A DNA stretch of 64,000 nt from Onchidella celtica (lineage: Eukaryota > Mollusca > Gastropoda > Systellommatophora > Onchidiidae): assembly GCA_963931925.1 (NCBI GenBank), contig OZ007582.1, positions 36,833,339-36,897,338 on the forward strand, given 5' to 3'. Position numbers and translations under genes: made by a program. The notes beneath the pieces are model-generated. The model was not told the DNA's origin. It did no database searches and was given only the letters and a program-made list of their open reading frames with translations. Position 1 is the first letter of the stretch. Every line of letters starts with the position of its first letter. Shown here piece by piece: positions 35,679 through 61,170 of the stretch.

Positions 35679-35684
35679 TTTATT
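35679..35684 (-). terminator. Candidate poly(A) signal for the C1q gene
   Basis: AATAAA on the minus strand, about 150 nt beyond the stop of the downstream tail frame (35831) and roughly 1 kb beyond the C1q stop. If it is used, the transcript includes the whole tail frame. Confidence 0.5.
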
Positions 35685-35830: not shown

Positions 35831-36721
35831 CTACGCAATACCATGGGAGATGATGGAGGAAACTAACACTAGCGCAGTACTCGCTACAACATACACAATC
35901 CAATCTAATTTGAAAAATCCGTTGCTATAGTGACGAGCGCCCTTCCCTCGACCGGAAGCGGCGCCATTATTGTCTGCATTGCTTTCGGAGACGATTTTCT
36001 TGGGAGCACTTTCGCCGGGTTCCTTCCCCTTGTCGGCCACCCCGCGAGGCGGCGAAATCGTGGTGACTCGGTAGTTTCCGGTGACCAGATTTTTGTTGAC
36101 AGATTCACATTTCTCCGTTCCGGGAGAGAAAAAAGCGTCTTTTCCGCAAATTTTCCCGCCTTGATTTGAGTTTTTCTGTTTAGCGGGTGTCCCTCGATTT
36201 GTGTCTGAATGTTCACTGTTGCTGTTGGCTCCACCAGAACTTCCCTGGTGTGTGCCTTTGTTGTGAGTGTTTTTCCTACGAGACCCATCGCTGTTGATGT
36301 GGTTACTGATGTCCCCGTTCTCGTCACCGTCATATTCATTATTATCACCTTTCGCCTGGGGCCTGTCTGTAACGTGATACGCTTTCTCGATTGCATTGTC
36401 ATCTACCAACACCTGCAGCACTACCTCTTCCGAGTCCTCATCCTTATCTGTATTCTCCTTCCCACCTTTCATGTTATTTACATTGTCGTCGGCGACCCCT
36501 TCCATTTCCACCCCACCTATCTGACCTTGACCTTTGCCCTTCCGACCCCGCCCACCGCCATCGCCACTCTCCGAGACTCTCTCGCCTTTCCCGACCACAA
36601 TCTCCGGCCCGTTCTCCACCACCCGGTTCAGGCGTGACATCGCCTTGGAACCCTCAGCCCAGCCTTCGTCAAAGACCCCGATAGAGGCAATGACCCGAGA
36701 AGGTGGTATACATGTAGCCAT
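35831..36721 (-). CDS. Open frame overlapping and following C1q stop; possible GPI-anchored tail
   Basis: A 296-codon frame in the +1 phase relative to C1q exon 3. Its first ATG (36721) lies inside the C1q domain coding sequence. From the C1q stop onward it offers 279 residues. These are hydrophilic, rich in Gly, Asn, Asp, Ser and Lys (SESGDGGGRGRKGKGQGQ; ENTDKDEDSEE; SGGANSNSEHSDTN). They end in about 22 hydrophobic residues (LDWIVYVVASTALVLVSSII) four or five residues before the stop. A hydrophobic C-terminus after a small-residue region is what a GPI signal looks like, and the upstream gene supplies a signal peptide. It has no ATG context of its own with a signal sequence. It could be reached by +1 frameshifting at 36668-36674, be intact in the genome with an assembly indel, or be a chance frame in a GC-richer 3' UTR. 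Confidence 0.45.
   Translation of the reverse strand: MATCIPPSRVIASIGVFDEGWAEGSKAMSRLNRVVENGPEIVVGKGERVSESGDGGGRGRKGKGQGQIGGVEMEGVADDNVNNMKGGKENTDKDEDSEEVVLQVLVDDNAIEKAYHVTDRPQAKGDNNEYDGDENGDISNHINSDGSRRKNTHNKGTHQGSSGGANSNSEHSDTNRGTPAKQKNSNQGGKICGKDAFFSPGTEKCESVNKNLVTGNYRVTTISPPRGVADKGKEPGESAPKKIVSESNADNNGAASGRGKGARHYSNGFFKLDWIVYVVASTALVLVSSIISHGIA
36668..36674 (-). promoter_or_regulatory. Candidate +1 frameshift site at the C1q stop
   Basis: The last sense codon and stop of the C1q frame read CTT TGA C. This is the same heptamer used for +1 frameshifting in bacterial release factor 2, and resembles in logic the NNN-TGA sites of animal antizyme. Slipping from CTT to TTT and continuing with GAC enters exactly the long open tail frame. 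No stimulator structure was tested. Confidence 0.3.
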
Positions 36722-39700
36722 GGAGATAGGAGGCGCGGCTGACGAGGATGAGCCACACTTGGTCGCCGGCTTCCATGTTCAAGATGGCGGTGTTGGAGGC
36801 TGAGGCCCAGTAAGGGATGCTTTCGGCCCAAATTGTGGCGATCATCTTGTTGTTCAGCACGAGCTCCACGGCTGCCTGCAGGACCAAAATAAAATAAAAA
36901 AAACAAAAGAAGAAAATACAAATTAATAGATGTCAACTAGTTATCAGATACAATAGTCAGTTTTTCATTCATCTTGTTATTATTGACTAATATCGCTAAT
37001 TCCTTATGTGGGTGCCTGGTAGGACTACCAGTAACAAACTAGCAAAGAAAGGGACGATAAATAATGTTATATTACGTAATCATAATATGTGATCTACATC
37101 CCACCTTCTAAAAAAAAAAAAAATTCTATGTTTGTTTGGATGCAAATGTGCCTGGGAAATTATCGATGCTGCTCGTTGACATAATTTTGTTTAAATGTGA
37201 AATACGATACAATATTAAACAAGCGTGAAGGGCCCGCTCTACGAACGGTATCAAGGGCGTAGTTTGAGATAAACTGGGCAGGTCTAGATGAGGCCTTGAC
37301 AAGGGATAAAGCTGAATCCGCCCCCCTTCCCTCTCCCGACCCACCCCCCCTCACACACACACACATACACACCCCAACCAATTTCTCCTATCCATCCCAT
37401 CTCTTTCTCTCTCCCACTCCCGTTACCCTGTCCCCCAATATATCTCCCTTGTCTCCCTCTAATCAATCCTCAGCTGGCTTGTTTTATTAATGTTTGACAG
37501 ACAATCACTTAATCTAAAATATCTTTAAAAGTGATGATTAAATCTTGATGAAATTTTAACATAGCATTACACATGTAATGGACATAACTCTACCAAAATT
37601 TCTCGCGGATTCATCAAAAGGATTGCGAGACATTTGGTGTCAATATTAGGGCAGTTTTGTTTATTTTATTACTCGATATATGCTTTATACTAACGTTGTC
37701 CGATCAGCTGGGCGTACGCGTTTTTGGAAAATTGAAGTGGGACGTCGGACAAGTAAAAGGTTGGTAAAACATTGGCTCAGAACAAAGCTTTTCCATTTTA
37801 ATCGAAAGGAAATGGCTTTCAAAAGATAAAGTGCGATGGGAGAAATGGATGAGAAATGAAAAAAAAAACAAGAAAAAAAAAAACCAAAAGACATCACCCG
37901 TTGTCTCCCTTGAGCGGCAATGGTCACAGAGAAAGTGTAGGTGCCGTTGAAAGGGGCAGTAAATCTTCCCGTCTCACGGTCGAAAGCCTCGCCCACATTG
38001 GTGAGAACCTTGTCGAACAGCAGGTCGGAGTTCTTGCTGACGGGTCCAGCATTTCTGTTGAGCCCTACAAAGAAAGCAACTCGAGCGCCCTCCTCAGAAC
38101 CTGCATACAAAATTAAAGCCACATTTTAACCCTTTCAGTACCGAAATAGCATCGCTGTTAACTCTTTAATACCCTACCAGTTACTGATGTTGGTTTTCTA
38201 TTACATGTTCTAGCTTTTAAATACACATGAATATTATAATTTAGATTCATATTTACATCGAAAGTAATTGAAATAAGTAGCTCTTTATATAAACAGGATT
38301 TGAGAAAATTGAGCTTTCACTGCGTCAGTAGCCAAGGGGTTAAGCAGGAACAGCTTTGAAAGGCTAATTAACCCTCAAGCGCCCGGGCAAAGGATTACCA
38401 TATCCAAAAAAAAAAAAAAAAAACGTGGTGCATATTGTCTTCAAATAATTAAACAAAATACAAAAACAAAAATTTTAATTTTAATTATTACTTGATCAGT
38501 CAGAAAGTGTTCCAAAACATATAGCATCGGATGCCAAGTGACACTGTTTTGAAATCGAACACTGAGTGCTAGGGGGTTAAATGAAGAGACACAGAGGAAA
38601 GAACACAGGCGTCACGGCGTCAAAGGAGTCCCATACTACTCCCCACCCCCCCCCCCACCCCCCAACAAACACAGACACACAGAATAAACGAGGTGATAAA
38701 CGAAACTTTTAAATGCCGGAATAATGTCATTGTAATCATATATCCAGTTGGGGGGGGGGGGGGATATCGGAAACAGGACATATAACCTACGTCAGCTACT
38801 GGACTGACAAGACGCATACATACATACATCAACTGCCAAAATCCTTAAATCACGAAGTACTAAATCCTCCCCCCCCCCCCCACACCCTGAAAGAAATACC
38901 CCAAAAATCAAAAATGTTATAAACAACTCAGGGTCACTGGTTTTTTAAATACTTTTTTTCAATATTGTTTTTAGTAAACCTTAATAACACCTTTTTCGGG
39001 GGCGGGGGGGGGGGGAGAAAATAAGCTTTCTGATCTGCACGGCTTTTACTCCTGAACTCGAATCGATCGACTGGGAGTCAAATTTGATACAAAGACAGTG
39101 GAATAGACCCAAGGAAACTGGATTTTAAAAAAGGACTCTTTCAAAACAAAAGAAAGGGAAAAAAAGGAAAGCCTTAAATCCCGGCATGTCACACTGACAC
39201 ACAGAGAATGAAAGATGGCTCTCCGTTCTCCTCCCTGTCTCCGAAACCGGTCAAAGAAATCTCACAATACTTTACTAATGAAAGATCACACAGCCGTGAC
39301 TTTTTCCGTCTCTACAGGGATTGAAAGTATCGATGCCATTCAAGGTTTTCTAAATTCGAATCCAATGTAACTCTTCCCTTTCCAAACACAAGAAAGTGAT
39401 TGCGGATATTTCAAAAAGAAACATGCCCGGGTACAAATGTGATCCTTTGTCTGTCTGGTCCACCATCGTTAACTCGCTTTGATCACTTCAGTTCCCATGT
39501 TTCCTGTAAAATTGTCTCTCCCCCCCTCTCCTCCCCCCCCCCCCACTCTCTTTCGGTGCCGTTCACCATTAGGCCATGCAGGCTGAAGCCTAGGGCCTCA
39601 AAATCTGTGGGGGTCTTGCCGTCTCAGGCCAGCCTGCATTATATTTTGTGAAACACGTAGCCTTTTCTATGATGTTAGAATGCACTGTAGTTTCTGAACA

Positions 39701-40305
39701 CCCCTAGGTGTGAAGATGGGGGTTTGGGAAGGGCCTCAGAGCCAGAATAGCCTAGGACCTCTCTTCATCTAAATCCGGCCCTACTCTCTCTCTCTTTCCC
39801 CCTCTCCCCACCCCCTCATCATTTTTGCCCTTCCTGTACAGTTTTGGCACTGGTTTATCCGCAACGGTCCCCCGGTGTGAGACTTGAATACAGCCATTTA
39901 CCGACTGTCCGCTCCACAATAGATTATCAGCTTGTATCTTGAACATTTCCGTCCCCGGACGTCTTCAGAGGGTTGGCTACTTGAGCTGTGAATACCCCTA
40001 TAATTACGCACAAGCCTACCTCCCATGCCGGGCTCTCCCGCCGGTCCTGGCTTGCCCGGGAAGCCCGGAGACCCCGGTTTTCCCGCGGGACCGCGAGGCC
40101 CTCTGATTGGCAGACTGACAGGCAAGCTCCGCCCGCTGCCGCACGTGACCTCCAGTTCGCACACGTCATCGTCCATGTCGTCATCGGCGCCTGACTCTCG
40201 TAGTTGGGCGCGGTTCCGGTTCCGGCGGGGTGTGCGTTTTGACGTTGTCATGGCAACGGAAACCACCAGCAGGGCAAAGAAGACGTCGACGTGTCCCAGT
40301 TTCAT
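36669..40305 (-). CDS. Secreted collagen-like C1q-domain protein
   Basis: Coding exons 40305-40020, 38100-37898 and 36875-36669 join in phases 1 and 0 by GT-AG splicing to 231 residues. Residues 1 to about 20 are a signal peptide (VDVFFALLVVSVAM). There follows a basic segment, an acidic run (DDDMDDD) and two cysteines (residues 49 and 55) that could cross-link chains. Nine Gly-X-Y triplets (residues about 69-95, GPAGKPGSPGFPGKPGPAGE) form a short collagen helix at the end of exon 1. The C1q jellyroll fills exons 2-3: ARVAFFVGLNRN, FDKVLTNVGEAFDRETGRFT, APFNGTYTFSVTI, then AAVELVLNNK, AGDQVWLIL and the final strand YMYTTFSGHCLY. It is a likely trimeric extracellular binding or lectin-like protein, as in molluscan C1q families. 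A strong acceptor (40316) lies 11 nt before the ATG, so a 5' UTR exon exists further upstream. For the stop context see 36668. Confidence 0.92.
37082..37680. other. C1q intron 2 simple sequence
   Basis: Intron 2 (36876-37897) holds poly-A runs, a C-rich/CA-rich patch with ACACACACAC near 37350, and CT-rich sequence. No exon signal. Confidence 0.5.
38126..38343. mobile_element. TTAA-type MITE, family A copy 2, next to C1q exon 2
   Basis: Flanked by TTAA at both ends. Ends CCCTTTCAGTACCG and, inverted, CCCCTTGGCTACTGACGC. Colinear with 8433-8664. Its edge lies 25 nt upstream of the acceptor of C1q exon 2 (transcript sense), so it may supply the branch-point region. Confidence 0.72.
38368..38580. 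mobile_element. TTAA-type MITE, C1q intron 1
   Basis: TTAACCCTCAAGCGCCC on the left and, inverted, TTAACCCCCTAGCACTCAG on the right. Only 24 bp separate it from the element at 38126. Weak interior similarity to 48345-48555 (AGCATCGGATGCC versus AGGCATCAGGTG). Confidence 0.6.
38581..40019. other. C1q intron 1, repeat and simple-sequence rich
   Basis: Poly-C and poly-G runs (38640, 38755, 38870, 39005, 39535). No exon with matching phases was found between 38104 and 40019. A spliced phase-0 or symmetric exon cannot be excluded, but none is suggested by the sequence. Confidence 0.5.
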
Positions 40306-44194: not shown

Positions 44195-44700
<506 letters not shown>

Positions 44701-52050: not shown

Positions 52051-52676
52051 ACTATTTATTTATTTATTCATTTATTTATTACTTATTTATATATTTTTAA
52101 CCTTACTTTGAAGTAGGTTGCTTTATGACGATAGAAGTGTAAACTCAAATATTATTGAACAATACAGGGGTGTGGGTAAATTCACACTGGAGAAGTTACG
52201 AGAGTTTAACGGGGCGGAAACTGCTGAGAACCTACGGTTTTACAGTCATAACGAGTCCAGCTATCAAGAGTTTAAATATCCAAAACACTGTGCCAAGAGG
52301 ATAAAAATATCATTTCAATAGAAAATGAATGTGCCATAAATTTCCAAACAGTACTTTCAGCTTTCACATTGGAGAGGGAAAACTTCATCGATCAATTAAA
52401 CTGATTTAATATTATGCCTGTGGGAGTCTGAGCACCCAAGCAATAAAATCCATTAACCAATCAAATCATCAATCAATCAATGATAGATCAGTGTCGTAAA
52501 ATTGCAATAAACAATTTTCTATCACCATGGCAACAGTCAGGTGTTTGTTTTGTAAACGTCATCAAAACAAACAATAATAAATGATACATAACAAGAAAAT
52601 AGTAGAACGTGCCAAAGCTGCGTGTCCTTCATTTGCTTTTCTTATTAATTCTCTGCTTGTATTCGTCCGTCCGTAT

Positions 52677-53232
<556 letters not shown>

Positions 53233-53254
53233 GTCAGTACCGTCCACTCATACC

Positions 53255-53365
53255 CCATTTTTGTGTCCATCCCATGTCTCTTTTCTACATGACCCTGTGG
53301 TTTCCCCGTCCCCCTCCCCCCCCCCCCCCCCATAAAAAATTATCTTTGCCACGCCCTTGGTCATT
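53255..53365 (+). repeat. Repeat pair with 55.98 kb
   Basis: CATGACCCTGTGGTTTCCCC and CATAAAAAATTATCTTTGCC are matched at 55975-56105 (CATGACCCTATGGTTTCCCC; CATAAAAAACTATCTCCGCC). Family unknown. Confidence 0.6.
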
Positions 53366-53710
53366 ATATACATCCATACTCCCTCCCACCTAATTTTGGG
53401 TCCCCCCCCTGAGGGTCCGTCACCACAGACAGCGTAATGCGATAATGTGCCCAGCAAGAGACTGTGTCGCTCCCTTCCCCCGGGGCTTACAAGTGTCTGT
53501 AACACTGCGCTACATAGTCTCTAGGCTTGGCCATACAAAGTACTGGTGGTGTCCAGCATGCAGCCTCAGTGGAATGTAACATGACGCACTTTCTTCTCAG
53601 GCCGGCTATTTCTACTGCATGGCCAAAATACTCACAATAAGACTTTTTTTTTTTTTACATGCCAAATTGGGGCAAATATCCGATAAATTTGTTATGGCCA
53701 ACCAAACGGG

Positions 53711-53920
<210 letters not shown>

Positions 53921-54598
53921 CATGGGGTATATTATTTACAGACAAAGACACAATACGCGATAGAAATATTAAATTGATCAGAAACTTCGTATTGTATGGA
54001 GACAGCAGAAAGAGTTTGCACTACATGTGCAAGATTATCATAGCAGATATTTTGACGTGAAAAAAACAACAATACACACACACAGGAAGAACAAGTTTTA
54101 AGTAACAATTTTTCTCGCCCAGGAGCCCTAACGACTATTCGAATGTAGCTGAAACTTATCCAGAGTCATTACTTCGAACTGACTGTAATCTTTTCGTTGA
54201 TTTTGAACTAATGTAACGCGAAATTAGTTCTGTCTCCACACTCGGAAAAACCGGAGATCTTTCAATATGTAGAAGAGGTAGATCTACAACAAATACAAAC
54301 TTTCACACTTGTTTCAATTGCCCTGAGGCACTTAACAAGCTGTTTCACAGTTCCGATTTATTCTAACTCCTTATCATAATGAGCTTTTTTTTAGGGACCG
54401 TGGTCTGATTACAAAGCCATAGTGTGTGTTCACAGTGTTCTTGTGTGTTCATTGCTCATCTACAGCTTACTGTATAAATACACTGGTGCCTTCCCAACAG
54501 CACATTAAATAAAGCCGTAAACGTCTAACAGTGAATTTCTCAGTTTGGTTCTTGTTTTGTTTTTTTTTCGGTATTTTGTATACTTCTTTAATCCCATT

Positions 54599-55017: not shown

Positions 55018-55974
55018 GTTGTGCGAAAAGAGGAGATGGAACCAACAAGAGCTAAGGTTGCGATAAGCCAGAGAAGCAATTTATGTTTTCCAAAACTTTG
55101 GCTTTAAATGCTAACAAGTTCCCATTCGTACTTGATTTATTTTTAATGTCTTCACCCACATTAGTTTCAATATTTTTGTTTCATTAACAAGCCGCGCTGC
55201 GCAGCTGGCGATGACGGGGTGTTCAATGCATTAGTGCGCAAGGGGAAATGCTGCCGGACTGCAACTGACAAGCGTTCGACATAGCGCAGATTAAAAAAAA
55301 ATTCCCAACCAAGATCTCTTCTTTATTTTTGTTCTGAATTTCTGCCAAATCAATCATGTGTCTGGCGTGAGCATAAGGGCTGATCGCGCATCGAGCCAAG
55401 TCTGTCTTACGACTGTCTTGACTCGGTGTGCGAAGTCTCTCTTTCAGACAGCTGACTCAAAACAGTTTTCATGCGATCTAACACATCAGACAGCCCGTGT
55501 TTCAGTCTGGCCGGTGCGTGAAGTCCCTGTCTAACTCCATATTACGAAAGACTTGACTATGGCGCCAGCCTTCAGGGAAAGAGCCAGAACAAAAAAAGGA
55601 AGACCGACATGAAGGCAGCCCATTAAGGAGCCCTTTTGAGGGCAAGGGAAGAACTACAGAAACATTGAGACAAACAACAACAAACAAACAAAACTAACGG
55701 AAAGAGTACGGTGTAAATGCCAAGGGCAGCGACCCTCCCTAAATAAAGATCTACAACATATTTACAAAAAACAGAAAAATATGTAGGGTCACAGCAAGGA
55801 CTGAAGCAAAGTCAAAATACGGCAGAAAGAAAAAAAGGTTGTATGAATCAAAGCCTCGAGTGAGAGCCAGTACAGAAACGATACAACAAAACGCTCTCTC
55901 ATACTCCACATCCCGCATTGAAACAAAGACAGAACAGCCTTGACTCAATGCGAGACCAGCATTGATAAGGCTCG
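55018..55974. other. Intergenic stretch, no supported gene
   Basis: Contains GTGTAAATGCCAAGGGCAGC followed by GACCCTCCCTAAATAAAGATC (55710-55752). Similar short stretches occur at 190-225 and 2358-2395, so this is probably the tail of an unidentified repeat. Confidence 0.4.
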
Positions 55975-57188
55975 ACACAGACGTCCATCCCATAATATTA
56001 TCTCTTTTCTGCATGACCCTATGGTTTCCCCGCCTCGCCCCCGGCCCCAACTCACCCCTCATAAAAAAACTATCTCCGCCGCGCTCTTGGTCGTTATACA
56101 CTATAGATCATGAAATTATTCTTTGCAGATTAGAAGCAACCTATGGGATCTCTGGTATAGCTCTGAAATGGTTCAGGTCCTATCTATGTGACCGAAAACA
56201 AATTGTTGTAACAGATAACATAAAATCAAAAGAATACATACTGCCATATGGTGTTCCACAAGGCTCAGTTTTAGGTCCCACTCTCTTTATTATGTACATT
56301 GGGCCCCTGTCTAATATTTTTAAAGATCATGGTTTTTATTACCATCAGTATGCTGATGATGTCCAACTATATCACCCTGGTACGACTTTAGGTCATGTTG
56401 ACAATGTTATAAAAGATAGTGAAAAGTGTGTTATGGACACAAAAGAATGGATGAACCAAAACAAACTAAAGCTAAATGAAGACAAAACAGAAGTTATGAT
56501 TATTGGAAAGAAAAGACAAATTACTGCAATTAAAAATGTAAAATTAAATCTTGGTGAAAGCACTGTAGCAAACGTGAATAAAGTTAAAAACTTAGGCACA
56601 ATTTTAGAATCAGATCTCAGCATGGAAAATCAAATAAGTTCATTATGTCGATCATTAATGTTTCAATTAAAAAACATCAGCTCTATTCGTCCATTCATAT
56701 CCCAAGAGGCAACTCGAATACTTATCACTTCACTTATGTTTTCAAAGCTTGATTATTGTAACTCTCTGCTCTTTGGAATTCCGAGCAACAAAATAAAACG
56801 CCTTCAGATAATTCAGAATAATGCAGCTAGACTGATTTTTAGAAAATCAAAAAGAGAATCTGCCTCAAGCCTTATTGACCAACTTCACTGGCTTACTGTT
56901 GAAAACAGAATAAAATTTAAAGCTGCAGTTTTGGTTTACAAATGTCTTGAAGGTTCAGCTCCCTCCTATCTTTCGGAACTTTTGAAAAAACACGAGTCTG
57001 ATAGAATTTTAAGATCTACTACAGAAAACAAACTGGTTGTTCCCAGGTGTAAAACATCAAATTACGGAGATAGAGCTTTTAGTTGTTTTGGTCCCTGTGT
57101 GTGGAATTCTTTACCACAAGAGGTTCGAAATTCTGCCTCTCTAAACATATTTAAAAACAGGTTAAAAACATTTCTTTTTAAAAACTGA
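55975..57188 (+). mobile_element. 5'-truncated CR1/L2-like LINE reverse transcriptase
   Basis: From about 56100 an intact frame encodes the second half of a CR1-group reverse transcriptase. Motifs: DHEIILCRL, GVPQGSVLGPTLFIMY, HQYADDVQLY (the catalytic YADD) and LNEDKTEVM. The CR1/L2-type C-terminal region follows: LDYCNSLLFGIP, NNAARLIF, LHWLTVENRIKFK, NYGDRAFSCFGP, WNSLPQEVR. The endonuclease and first RT motifs are missing; the frame starts abruptly after a repeat shared with 53.26 kb (55975-56100). No stop or frameshift in about 360 codons, ending at TAA 57188. A truncated, probably inactive copy. Confidence 0.88.
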
Positions 57189-58037
57189 ATTTTATAACTT
57201 GCTATGGATGTATAAAACTAGTTTGTCTGTGTGTGTGTAAGTTTATTTGAATGTGCTTTTATGATTTTTCTGTCAGGCCAGAGTTTTCTGCTATTGTATG
57301 ACAGTACACAATACAGCCTGCTACTGTCACGCCCACTGTCTTGTGGGTCATCTCGGGAGAGAGGAAGACTAGGGGAAGGTAACCCTGAATACAAATACCA
57401 CACTGCCTTGTGTGTTGCTATGATAGCAAAGGCTATGGGAGTAAACCCAGACAGAAAATCAGGAGTGGAGACCCGAAGGTGGTTGTCAGGGAGAACTGCA
57501 TCAAACTGGCTTCCAGCATCTCCTGCAGCCGGACTAGTTCCAAATGTATTGACCTGGTCTCTCCCTTGGGTTTAACTAGAATGGCAGAGAGAGGGGTGGT
57601 GCCTCTGGGCAAAGCACCATCTCTTAAAAATAGCCCAGGCAAGGCAGCAAAACGAGGAGGCGTTTGCTCGGGCTTGGCAAGCGTCTGTCTCTCCTCTATA
57701 AGCCCACCCATTTCCGATTTGGAGAGGACACTCCAGCCATCCGTTACGGATGGGCACAACACGGGAGGTGGCAGTTACCGGTGATAAGCTCAATCCATTT
57801 GGCGTACGGATGAGCGCCAGGGGTCCCCTCTGTCGGTGGGAGCGGCTTTTCAGCTGCATTGATCAACTACCGCCCGCCGTAACCTGGGCAGCCCCCAGGC
57901 AGTTGGGTGTTGTTCCGCCACGTCAGCCTGCTTCATAAGGTGGTTGGAGCTAGACCAAAAGTCGAAAAGCTGACGTAAAGTGTGCACCTGGCAAAAACAG
58001 AAAAATACTAAAACTTGGTACCTGGAACGTCAGAACA

Positions 58038-59288
58038 ATGCGCCCAGGCTTGCAACAGCAAGATCTCACTGATATTGACTCCATCAGGAAATCCCAAATT
58101 ATTGATCGAGAACTTCAGCTACTAAACATCGACATCGCTGCCCTTCAAGAAACTCGACTTCCCGACTCCGGGTCAGTCAAAGAAGAAAACTACACCTTCT
58201 TCTGGCAGGGCCTTAGCAGCGAACAGCCGAGAATCCACGGCGTGGGCTTCGCCGTAAAAAACTCCCTTATCAATTCGATCGCAACTCCAATTGGAGTGTC
58301 AGAACGCATCATGACACTCAGACTGAACACCCGGTCTGGTTTTACCAACATTATCTGTGTCTATGCCCCAACACTTACCTCCTCTGACGAAACCAAAGAC
58401 ATTTTCTACGAGGCATTGCAGAGGACTCTCCACAACATCCCTCTCACCGAAGGCCTGCTAATTCTGGGTGACTTTAACGCTCGAGTGGGAGCAGATCACT
58501 CCGCATGGCCAAAGTGCATTGGGCACTTCGGCATTGGCAACATCAACGAAAACGGGCAGCGCCTTCTGGAGCTATGCTCCGTAAACTCATTATGTGTTAC
58601 AAACACGTACTTTGACCTTAAGAGATGCCAAAGAACATCATGGCGCCATCCCAGGTCTGGCCATTGGCATCAATTAGATCTTATTCTCTCAAGGAGGAAG
58701 AGTTTGGGCTGTATAAAAATAACTAGTTCCCTCCACAGTGCTGACTGTGACACCGACCATGCACTGGTAGTCAGCAAAATCAAAATTTCGGCCAAGAAAA
58801 TATACAGATCAAAAGCCCCTTCAATCCCTAAGATCAATGTAACAGCAATCAGAGATGAATCAAATAGAAAGTCATTTGAAAAGTTATTTGCTGAAAGCAT
58901 GGATAATGTCACCCAATGTGACTCGGTAGATGAAACATGGAACACTCTCAGTTCAAAAATTCATGACTGTGCCATCAAGTCTTTTGGACAGCATAAAGTT
59001 TCAAACAACGACTGGGTAGCCCAGAACAGCGAAATTCTCCTACCTCTCATTGAGCAAAAGAAATCTGCTTTCAATGAGTATAACAAAAATTGCAATCAGA
59101 GTACAAAAACTTGTTTGAAAAATGCAAAAGCTAAACTTCAGCTGGAGGTAAGACGTTGCGCCAACAAATACTGGACAGACTTGTGTAACAGCATACAAGA
59201 GGCAAATGAAAAGGGAGATATGAAAACCGCCTTTAGTCAGATGAAAGTAGCTCTTGGGCCAATCATCACCAAAAAGCGCCCCACTTAA
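58038..59288 (+). CDS. LINE endonuclease domain (APE-type), frameshifted from RT
   Basis: A 416-codon frame; the same phase is open upstream to about 57950 (ILKLGTWNVRTM), with no earlier ATG. AP-endonuclease signatures: GTWNVRTM, LQETRL (catalytic Glu), VYAPT, LILGDFNARVG (Asp/Asn), HQLDLIL and DTDHALV (Asp/His). All key residues are present. It nicks target DNA for reverse transcription. The frame ends after ITKKRPT at 59288. Removing one A from the A5 run near 59273 would continue directly into the RT frame, so the stop probably reflects a one-base insertion. Confidence 0.85.
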   Translation: MRPGLQQQDLTDIDSIRKSQIIDRELQLLNIDIAALQETRLPDSGSVKEENYTFFWQGLSSEQPRIHGVGFAVKNSLINSIATPIGVSERIMTLRLNTRSGFTNIICVYAPTLTSSDETKDIFYEALQRTLHNIPLTEGLLILGDFNARVGADHSAWPKCIGHFGIGNINENGQRLLELCSVNSLCVTNTYFDLKRCQRTSWRHPRSGHWHQLDLILSRRKSLGCIKITSSLHSADCDTDHALVVSKIKISAKKIYRSKAPSIPKINVTAIRDESNRKSFEKLFAESMDNVTQCDSVDETWNTLSSKIHDCAIKSFGQHKVSNNDWVAQNSEILLPLIEQKKSAFNEYNKNCNQSTKTCLKNAKAKLQLEVRRCANKYWTDLCNSIQEANEKGDMKTAFSQMKVALGPIITKKRPT

Positions 59289-61170
59289 GTCTGTAAATGG
59301 TGAACCCATCACAGATAAAAATGAACAACTGAATAGGTGGGTAGAGCATTACTCTCTGTTGTATTCAACTGAGAAAAATATTCCACCAGATTTTGAGGAA
59401 CATCTCCAAAAACTGCCAATAATGGCCGAACTTGACGCTGAACCTTCCTTAGTCGAGCTTTCCAATGCAATCGACCACCTGTCTGCTGGAAAAGCCACAG
59501 GAAGTGACAACATTCCTGCAGAGGTATTAAAAGACCTAAAAGGCCCATTATTACCACACCTGTATAATCTGTTACTGCAGTGTTGGAAAGAAGGCGTGAT
59601 ACCACATGATATGAGAGACGCCAAAATTGTCCCACTTTACAAGAACAAAGGAGACAAAGGCGACTGCAACAACTATCGAGGCATATCCCTCCTCAGCATT
59701 ACTGGAAAGGCTTTTGCTCGCGTCATCCTCTGCCGCCTTCAACAACTGGCGGAAAAAGTCTTACCAGAAACACAATGTGGCTTTCGAAGCAAACGATCAA
59801 CTATTGACATGATATTTGCACTTCGGCAAATCCAAGAAAAATGTAAAGAACAAAACAGGCCGCTTATAACATGCTTTGTGGACCTAACAAAGGCTTTCGA
59901 CACCGTAAGCCGATCTGGCCTGTATGCAGTCCTTAAATCCATAGGCTGTCCACCAACATTGCTAAAACTTATTGCATCCTTCCACACTGACATGAGGGCA
60001 TGTGTCAACTTTGAGGGCTGCACATCCAATTCATTTGCTGTAAACAGCGGTGTGAAGCAGGGATGTGTTCTTGCTCCTACCTTATTTGGTATATATTTTG
60101 CAGCCCTACTCAAGAATGCCTTTGGTCAATGTTCAGGTGGAGTACTTATTAACACCAGAGTGGACGGCTCCATTTTTAATGTTGCCAGACTAAAAGCAAA
60201 ATCTCGTACAGAGCATATTATGTTACAAGAGCTCCTCTTCGCAGATGATGCTGCAATCGTGGCCCACGATGAAACCACGCTCCAGGCTCTCATCAATAGC
60301 CTTGCCAAAGCCTGTGACAAATTCATGCTAAAGATCAGTGTCTCAAAAACTGTAGTTTTGACACAAGGCTTGAGAAACCCCAACCCAATCATGCTGAATG
60401 GCTCTCCTCTGGAGCAAGTGGGAAAATTCTGCTACCTAGGCTCAACCATCAGTGGTAGCACAGACATAACAACTGAAATAAATGCCAGAATAGGAAAGGC
60501 GGCCACAGCTTTTGGCAAACTCTCAAAAAGGGTGTGGAACAATAGCAAGCTGACCATCAAAACAAAGGTACTCGTGTACCAAACTTGCGTCCTAAGCACC
60601 CTGCTGTATGGCTCAGAGACATGGACCACCTACTCCAAACATGAAAGATCCCTCAACTCCTTCCACCTGCGCTGCCTACGCAAAATTCTCAAGATCAAGT
60701 GGCAAGACAGGATCTCAAATATCGAAGTTCTGAGCCGAGCCAACATTCCATCAACTCAGGCTCTCCTAGGCAAAAAAAGACTGCGGTGGCTTGGACATCT
60801 CCACCGTATGGAAAATGATCGCATCCCCAGACAAATTCTCTACGGGGAACTTGCTACTGGCAACCGACCCAGAGGTAGGCCACATCTGCGATTCAAAGAC
60901 ACTTGCAAGGTCACGATGAAAGCATTCAACATCGACCCCAATGAATGGGAGAACCTTGCAAATGATCGAAGCAGATGGAGACAAAAATTGCGCAGTGGCA
61001 CGCTCACAATAGACTTCAAGGCAAAAGAAACATACCTGACAAAACGACAGAGGCGGAATGAAAACACTCGCCAAAGTGAACCCAAAAGACTGACCTGCAA
61101 TCACTGCCATCGCACTCTCGGGTCAAACATTGGTAGAATAAGCCACGAGAGAAGCTGTCAGTCAAAATGA
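59254..61170 (+). CDS. LINE reverse transcriptase domain
   Basis: The long second frame of the LINE. The real protein would be continuous with the endonuclease; an in-frame ATG is not needed. RT motifs: VPLYKNKGDKGDCNNYRGIS, QCGFRSKRSTIDMIF, FVDLTKAFDTV (motif A), VKQGCVLAPTLF (motif B), LLFADDAAI (motif C FADD), FCYLGSTISG. The C-terminal region has KKRLRWLGHLHRM, NRPRGRPHLRFKD and a Cys-X2-Cys-X12-His-X3-Cys finger (CNHCHRTLGS...HERSC) typical of this LINE group. There are no internal stops over about 630 residues, so insertion was recent. Confidence 0.9.
   Translation: MGQSSPKSAPLKSVNGEPITDKNEQLNRWVEHYSLLYSTEKNIPPDFEEHLQKLPIMAELDAEPSLVELSNAIDHLSAGKATGSDNIPAEVLKDLKGPLLPHLYNLLLQCWKEGVIPHDMRDAKIVPLYKNKGDKGDCNNYRGISLLSITGKAFARVILCRLQQLAEKVLPETQCGFRSKRSTIDMIFALRQIQEKCKEQNRPLITCFVDLTKAFDTVSRSGLYAVLKSIGCPPTLLKLIASFHTDMRACVNFEGCTSNSFAVNSGVKQGCVLAPTLFGIYFAALLKNAFGQCSGGVLINTRVDGSIFNVARLKAKSRTEHIMLQELLFADDAAIVAHDETTLQALINSLAKACDKFMLKISVSKTVVLTQGLRNPNPIMLNGSPLEQVGKFCYLGSTISGSTDITTEINARIGKAATAFGKLSKRVWNNSKLTIKTKVLVYQTCVLSTLLYGSETWTTYSKHERSLNSFHLRCLRKILKIKWQDRISNIEVLSRANIPSTQALLGKKRLRWLGHLHRMENDRIPRQILYGELATGNRPRGRPHLRFKDTCKVTMKAFNIDPNEWENLANDRSRWRQKLRSGTLTIDFKAKETYLTKRQRRNENTRQSEPKRLTCNHCHRTLGSNIGRISHERSCQSK

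Follow-up and report, generated by a model that had tools for sequence, protein, structure and literature searches.

A collagen-C1q gene of Onchidella celtica followed by a putative anchor-bearing tail in the +1 frame

The gene for a collagen-C1q protein was found on the minus strand of a 64-kb stretch of the Onchidella celtica genome, positions 36,833,339-36,897,338 of chromosome 16, the whole of which is referred to here as the window. Its stop codon is followed, one base out of register, by a long open frame that ends in a putative membrane anchor. The locus raises the question whether this frame is coding sequence and, if it is, by what means it would be joined to the C1q domain. The tail is very probably a real coding continuation of the gene. 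A one-base length difference at the junction is proposed, tentatively, as the explanation for its being off-frame, and this is slightly favoured over programmed +1 frameshifting, the two being near balance.

The collagen-C1q gene and its stop codon

The gene comprises three exons (Table 1), with borders inferred from sequence and with introns of phase 1 and then phase 0; splice-site scores here and below come from hand-entered weight matrices. The spliced product of 231 residues opens with a signal-peptide-like start, hydrophobic by hydropathy analysis, and continues through a linker and a short run of Gly-X-Y triplets to a complete C1q domain. In a Pfam search the spliced protein matched PF00386 with an E value of 1.2e-23 (84.1 bits, profile positions 1-126 of 127); the query was two residues short at the join of exons 1 and 2, which leaves the C1q domain unaffected. 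The Pfam Collagen match (E 0.0039, 17.4 bits) fell below the cut-off of 27.2, and Gly-X-Y repeats are visible.

Table 1 Features of the collagen-C1q gene and its tail, with positions in the window.
Feature	Position	Strand	Description	Basis or score
Exon 1	40020..40305	-	Start resembling a signal peptide; linker containing two Cys; short collagen (Gly-X-Y) stretch	Translation, N-terminal hydropathy, sub-cut-off Pfam Collagen match
Exon 1 candidate donor, GGGAG/GTAGGC		-	Phase 1	Score 3.5
Exon 2	37898..38100	-	C1q domain, first half	PF00386 match; acceptor 4.0, donor 1.2
Exon 3, C1q part	36669..36875	-	C1q domain, second half, up to the TGA stop	Acceptor 7.2
CTT TGA C	36668..36674	-	C1q stop; candidate site of a +1 shift	Sequence
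+1-frame tail	35831..36670	-	279 codons + stop; polar, two Cys, putative C-terminal hydrophobic anchor	
Anchor region (putative)	35834..35929	-	Small-residue YSNG, spacer FFKLD, hydrophobic WIVYVVASTALVLVSSIIS, end HGIA	
Hydrophobic stretch WIVYVVASTALVLVSSIIS	35902-35846	-	Tail hydropathy maximum	
AATAAA poly(A) signal	35679..35684	-	Only one found from the C1q stop to 35000	

The C1q frame ends ...TTC TCG GGT CAT TGC CTC TAT CGG GGT CTT TGA C, with the TGA at 36671-36669, and runs of GGGG and TTT are present at the junction. Alignments with cerebellin, adiponectin and caprin-2 chains of solved structure stop 1-3 residues short of this TGA, and the distance from the FSG motif to the stop is 7 residues here and 4 to 8 residues in six other FSG-bearing C1q genes; the TGA therefore stands at the normal end of C1q proteins. 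A search of the genome for the family listed 58 exon-level matches, two of them belonging to the gene under study. Comparisons were made with 28 other C1q places, 8 distinct ones from one set and 20 from another. CTT directly precedes the stop in none of the 28, and a TGA-C stop context occurs in 8 of 20 other C1q genes.

Many C1q domains inside single open frames were observed on C18, the smallest chromosome, for example at 23.30-23.61 Mb, and several pairs there have identical scores, which suggests recent tandem copies. At another locus (L017:3040-5253, minus strand) a 738-residue open frame has a long N-terminal part and a C1q domain near its end. Two similar C1q genes (L004/L010 and L005/L009) at 30.13-30.15 Mb of C17 contain a TAA inside the matched stretch, and their frame may extend into an intron at about the position seen in the gene under study.

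The +1-frame tail and its putative anchor

The tail frame starts with GAC at 36670 and meets its first stop, at 35833-35831, after 279 codons. None of 5000 dinucleotide-preserving shuffles was equally open (278 codons tested, from 36667), and in 3000 further shuffles the longest open run averaged 99 codons and reached at most 277. Period-3 base composition is pronounced in the tail (chi2 69.4, p 5e-13), with G at 0.44 in codon position 1 and A at 0.39 in position 2, whereas the control flanks, 834 bases following each stop codon in 20 other C1q genes of the genome, gave chi2 values of 0.7-10.9. When the window was divided into 211 chunks, the two highest values (49.3 and 44.1) came from chunks overlapping the tail. 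Codons 140-210, a quarter of the tail, are not significantly periodic by themselves (p 0.18). Beyond the stops of the 28 other C1q places, +1 runs do not exceed 57 codons, and the maximum over all frames is 152; open +2 stretches of 93 and 152 codons were observed after the stops at L012 and L034, respectively.

The switch from the C1q frame to the tail frame was placed with a position-specific model, trained on sequence at a distance from the junction, and its optimum is at 36695, 24 bases upstream of the TGA. Past this point the frame evidence gains about 11 bits up to 36650, loses about 5 bits by 36620, stays level to 36600 and then rises lastingly. A separate frame profile, in which the training included part of the tail and which compared minus-strand frames only, also put the change of coding frame near the stop. 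C1q homology extends to about 36682, which makes a switch between that point and the first codons of the tail probable.

The 278 residues counted include 41 Gly, 26 Asn, 26 Ser, 36 Lys plus Arg, 40 Asp plus Glu and two Cys, with no N-glycosylation sequon. The best 19-residue hydropathy window of the tail (2.08) is WIVYVVASTALVLVSSIIS, near the C-terminus, and was matched in none of 20000 residue shuffles. It follows a candidate GPI site, YSNG, that was picked by eye. AlphaFold2, run on the tail as a lone sequence, gave a mean pLDDT of 44.6, low throughout except for a terminal helix at 253-277, the best-modelled part (pLDDT blocks 62-80). The polar stalk is probably disordered, and the tail is predicted from its sequence to end in a membrane anchor, either of GPI type or single-pass with a short tail. 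A signal peptide was not seen in this frame, and surface delivery would therefore need the N-terminus of the C1q protein. The search of Pfam with the tail gave nothing above cut-off, the best match being MRC1 (E 0.66).

Neither AATAAA nor ATTAAA was found within the tail, and the one AATAAA found in a search from the C1q stop to 35000 lies downstream of it, at 35684; a C1q mRNA ending there therefore includes the tail, which supports its place in the C1q transcript unit. In these respects the locus agreed with the original prediction, which had described a C1q frame terminating in CTT TGA C, a +1 frame open for 279 codons beyond it, a hydrophilic tail with a hydrophobic end and a poly(A) signal only past the tail frame.

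Searches of the genome for a second copy or retrocopy returned, at the DNA level, a single match, the gene itself, and, at the protein level, two matches, the gene itself and a chance match (E 2.6). Scans of the 64-kb window for tRNA genes and Rfam families gave 0 hits each. Elsewhere in the window, pieces of non-LTR retrotransposons lie on the plus strand at 55944-57185, 57954-59285 and 59251-61167; they carry a reverse transcriptase ORF as well as endonuclease and reverse transcriptase ORFs in different frames with a 35-base overlap. Tandem simple repeats that read CLSVCLSV or YLSIYLSI and are open in several frames occupy 44260-44631, 52581-53390 and 53658-54020, and similar stretches are present at L012.

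Explanations of the frame change

A structure in the RNA downstream of the C1q stop was sought by folding. Segments of 60, 80 and 120 bases 3' of the stop gave z-scores of +0.88, +0.67 and -0.38 against shuffles, and the 100 bases downstream gave +0.09, with a method that handles structures other than pseudoknots; no stimulatory structure was found in these segments. The positive control was the antizyme gene of the same genome, whose shift site (L041:1150-1156, near 37,708,150 on C18) was observed as WWS-stop at TCC TGA T, continuing with DVPH in the +1 frame and followed by a very stable hairpin. The gene was recognised by a one-exon Pfam match (28.9 bits, against a cut-off of 24.2); its presumed shift site, identified by eye about 5.9 kb upstream of that exon, is taken to belong to the same gene. 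Its downstream 80 and 120 bases gave z-scores of -3.27 and -2.62. The control folds strongly, and the method therefore detects structure of this kind, none of which is present at the C1q site.

The best explanation of the off-frame tail, held tentatively and at something short of even chances, is a one-base length difference at the junction of domain and tail. The sequenced haplotype would carry it either as an allele occurring in nature or as a mutation that became fixed recently. As written, this haplotype would give secreted C1q only, and in-frame versions, carried by another allele or by close relatives, would encode a cell-surface C1q; the tail would still be open because the change is recent. 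A coding, anchor-bearing tail and a switch estimated 24 bases before the stop fit such a change, as do the runs of GGGG and TTT, at which one-base slips are common. Natural frameshift alleles are also common in outbred marine invertebrates. This explanation is slightly favoured because the site has no downstream RNA structure, though the antizyme control works, and because TGA-C is an ordinary context among the C1q stops of the genome. The published assembly quality, moreover, argues against a consensus error but not against a true allele, and the assembly description (PMC12744200) gives a heterozygosity of 0.47%. On the other side, a random indel must hit the domain boundary, and the junction accounts for about 5% of the tail's crude slippage weight; the resulting stop falls where C1q proteins normally end and coincides with a +1 shift heptamer whose CTT precedes the stop at none of the 28 other places. 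The tail, furthermore, is free of a second lesion, and the genome searches found no second gene copy.

Programmed +1 frameshifting, by which one mRNA would give both a secreted and a membrane-anchored C1q protein, is the nearest competitor, although it is on balance doubtful. At the moment of the shift, the P site would hold CUU and the A site the weak stop UGA-C; the peptidyl-tRNA-Leu would re-pair with UUU, and some ribosomes would enter the tail. The change of coding frame near the stop, the long intact frame with its anchor, the position of the stop at the normal C1q end and the high published quality of the assembly all accord with such a shift, and the occurrence of CTT before the stop at this gene alone among the C1q places compared points the same way. 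An antizyme-type TCC TGA T site exists in the genome. PMC3500957 includes CUU UGA C in a list of +1 slippery sequences, and PMC5009743 bears out the claim that CTTTGAC is the frameshift heptamer of bacterial prfB, adding that Ty1 and ABP140 have CUU in the P site. Against it, the C1q site has no downstream structure, unlike the antizyme site of the genome, with pseudoknots outside the fold method; UGA-C is common in the paralogues (8 of 20), a comparably open +1 frame follows none of the 28 other C1q places, and +1 recoding is rare in animals. To our knowledge, antizyme is the only established nuclear case there. Some +1 sites need no downstream structure, and the missing structure therefore lowers the case for frameshifting without removing it. 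The more specific proposal, that a programmed shift at CUU_UGA_C without strong RNA structure determines how much of the C1q made from a single mRNA is secreted and how much GPI-anchored, is to be regarded as rather unlikely. Of the predicted pair of secreted and membrane forms made by a shift, what stands is a very probably coding tail that takes over close to the C1q stop and ends in a putative anchor; the lack of downstream structure and the frequency of UGA-C in C1q genes weigh against the shift itself. Among the papers listed by literature searches on +1 frameshifting there was no C1q case, the subjects being antizyme, ciliates, fungi including yeast, bacteria, viruses and the vertebrate ASXL genes.

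The tail could also be joined by splicing, if the junction contained a small intron or if another acceptor brought the tail into frame, and this is distinctly unlikely. Switches between secreted and membrane forms by splicing are common in animals, the drop of about 5 bits in frame evidence within 36650-36600 would allow a short non-coding stretch, and a GT at 36758 scores 1.1, about equal to the exon 2 donor (1.2). That donor, however, would remove the end of the C1q domain, and the best donor in 36694-36600 scores -1.3, while the gene's own sites score 1.2 to 7.2. In 36868-35700, acceptors above 0 occur only at 36799, 35830 and 35765, the first leading to a tail-frame stop after six codons and the other two lying beyond the tail. 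A splice join is thus not favoured, with no good site at the junction and no acceptor above 0 in the open tail frame.

It is improbable that the tail is a separate open reading frame that starts at the in-frame ATG at 36721-36719 and encodes a cytosolic tail-anchored protein from the same or another transcript. An anchor at the extreme C-terminus would suit such a protein, but upstream of the C1q stop the tail frame has no coding signal and the C1q frame wins, and overlapping cistrons are rare in animals.

Slightly less probable still is that the sense frame is untranslated, either as a fortuitous frame in a 3' UTR or as the shadow of code on the opposite strand. Neighbouring and antisense frames also have fairly long open runs (165 and 142 aa), and codons 140-210 lack significant periodicity, as stated above. 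Position models trained outside the tail, on 20 other C1q domains, on the gene's own C1q coding sequence and on the reverse transcriptase and endonuclease ORFs of the window, gave the sense frame 35.6, 31.9 and 24.5 bits and the mirrored antisense frame 21.9, 39.3 and 35.5 bits, in that order, with every remaining frame of the region below -30 bits. Composition thus gives the coding phase of the tail and not its strand, and it suits the mirrored frame about equally; to this extent the caution expressed earlier about antisense openness was justified. The mirrored frame, however, contains six stops, with a longest open run of 142 aa, against none in the 279 sense codons. The sense strand is preferred because its codons are unbroken, continue the C1q exon and lead to the anchor and then to the poly(A) signal. 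As for a chance frame in the 3' UTR, which had been raised as an alternative, the shuffles (0 of 5000), the chi2 of 69.4 against at most 10.9 in 20 flanks and the unmatched hydrophobic window (0 of 20000) make it unlikely. Antisense coding was considered in its own right as well; composition does not reject it, and the six stops of the mirrored frame speak against it. On the plus strand, at 35909-36637, the frame mirrored to the tail is open as stretches of 86 and 142 aa with a coding-like score, and this is probably a shadow of the sense code.

A one-base assembly error, an alternative offered with the original prediction, is the least credible explanation of all, in spite of the GGGG and TTT runs, since PMC12744200 reports HiFi coverage of ~71x and a primary QV of 56.8, equivalent to about 2e-6 errors per base and so of the order of 1e-4 for 50 bases.

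Meaning and comparison with known systems

On either of the two leading readings, an allelic or recent one-base change and a programmed shift, the gene suggests a C1q protein that is anchored to the membrane at its C-terminus. If the difference is allelic, one base would decide between cell-surface and soluble C1q, possibly segregating in a wild population. If the ribosome shifts, antizyme would be joined by a second kind of nuclear +1 recoding in animals, one that switches an immune-type protein between secreted and membrane forms at a sequence known elsewhere from bacteria, and C1q would be held in the membrane by its own C-terminus. No C1q protein with a GPI or C-terminal membrane anchor was found among the papers listed by the literature searches, judged mostly by titles and abstract openings.

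Among molluscan proteins, LymAdipo of Lymnaea is described in PMC10045044 as a collagen-C1q protein of 264 aa that ends with C1q. This protein, of the adiponectin/CTRP type, resembles the present product in having a collagen stretch and then C1q; it differs in that the gene under study is followed by a long, out-of-frame, anchor-bearing tail. The Mercenaria survey (PMC8905726) uses signal peptide, transmembrane, coil and collagen features to class its C1q proteins.

The secreted/membrane switch of immunoglobulins shares with the present case two C-termini, one secreted and one anchored, from one gene. That switch is made by splicing and poly(A) choice, whereas the C1q gene has neither good splice sites at the junction nor an internal poly(A) signal.

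We know of no use of an internal Shine-Dalgarno sequence by animal ribosomes. The prfB gene (RF2), with CUU UGA C, and yeast Ty1 and ABP140, with CUU AGG C, share with the C1q site a CUU in the P site and a slow A-site codon; their context is bacterial or yeast, and prfB also uses an internal Shine-Dalgarno, according to PMC5009743.

In animals, antizyme (UCC UGA U) has a similar layout, in which a stop likewise ends the first ORF and a longer +1 ORF lies beyond. Its site is conserved in animals and has a strong 3' hairpin (z -3.27 in this genome), a structure that the C1q site does not share; the product, moreover, would here be an anchored protein of immune type.
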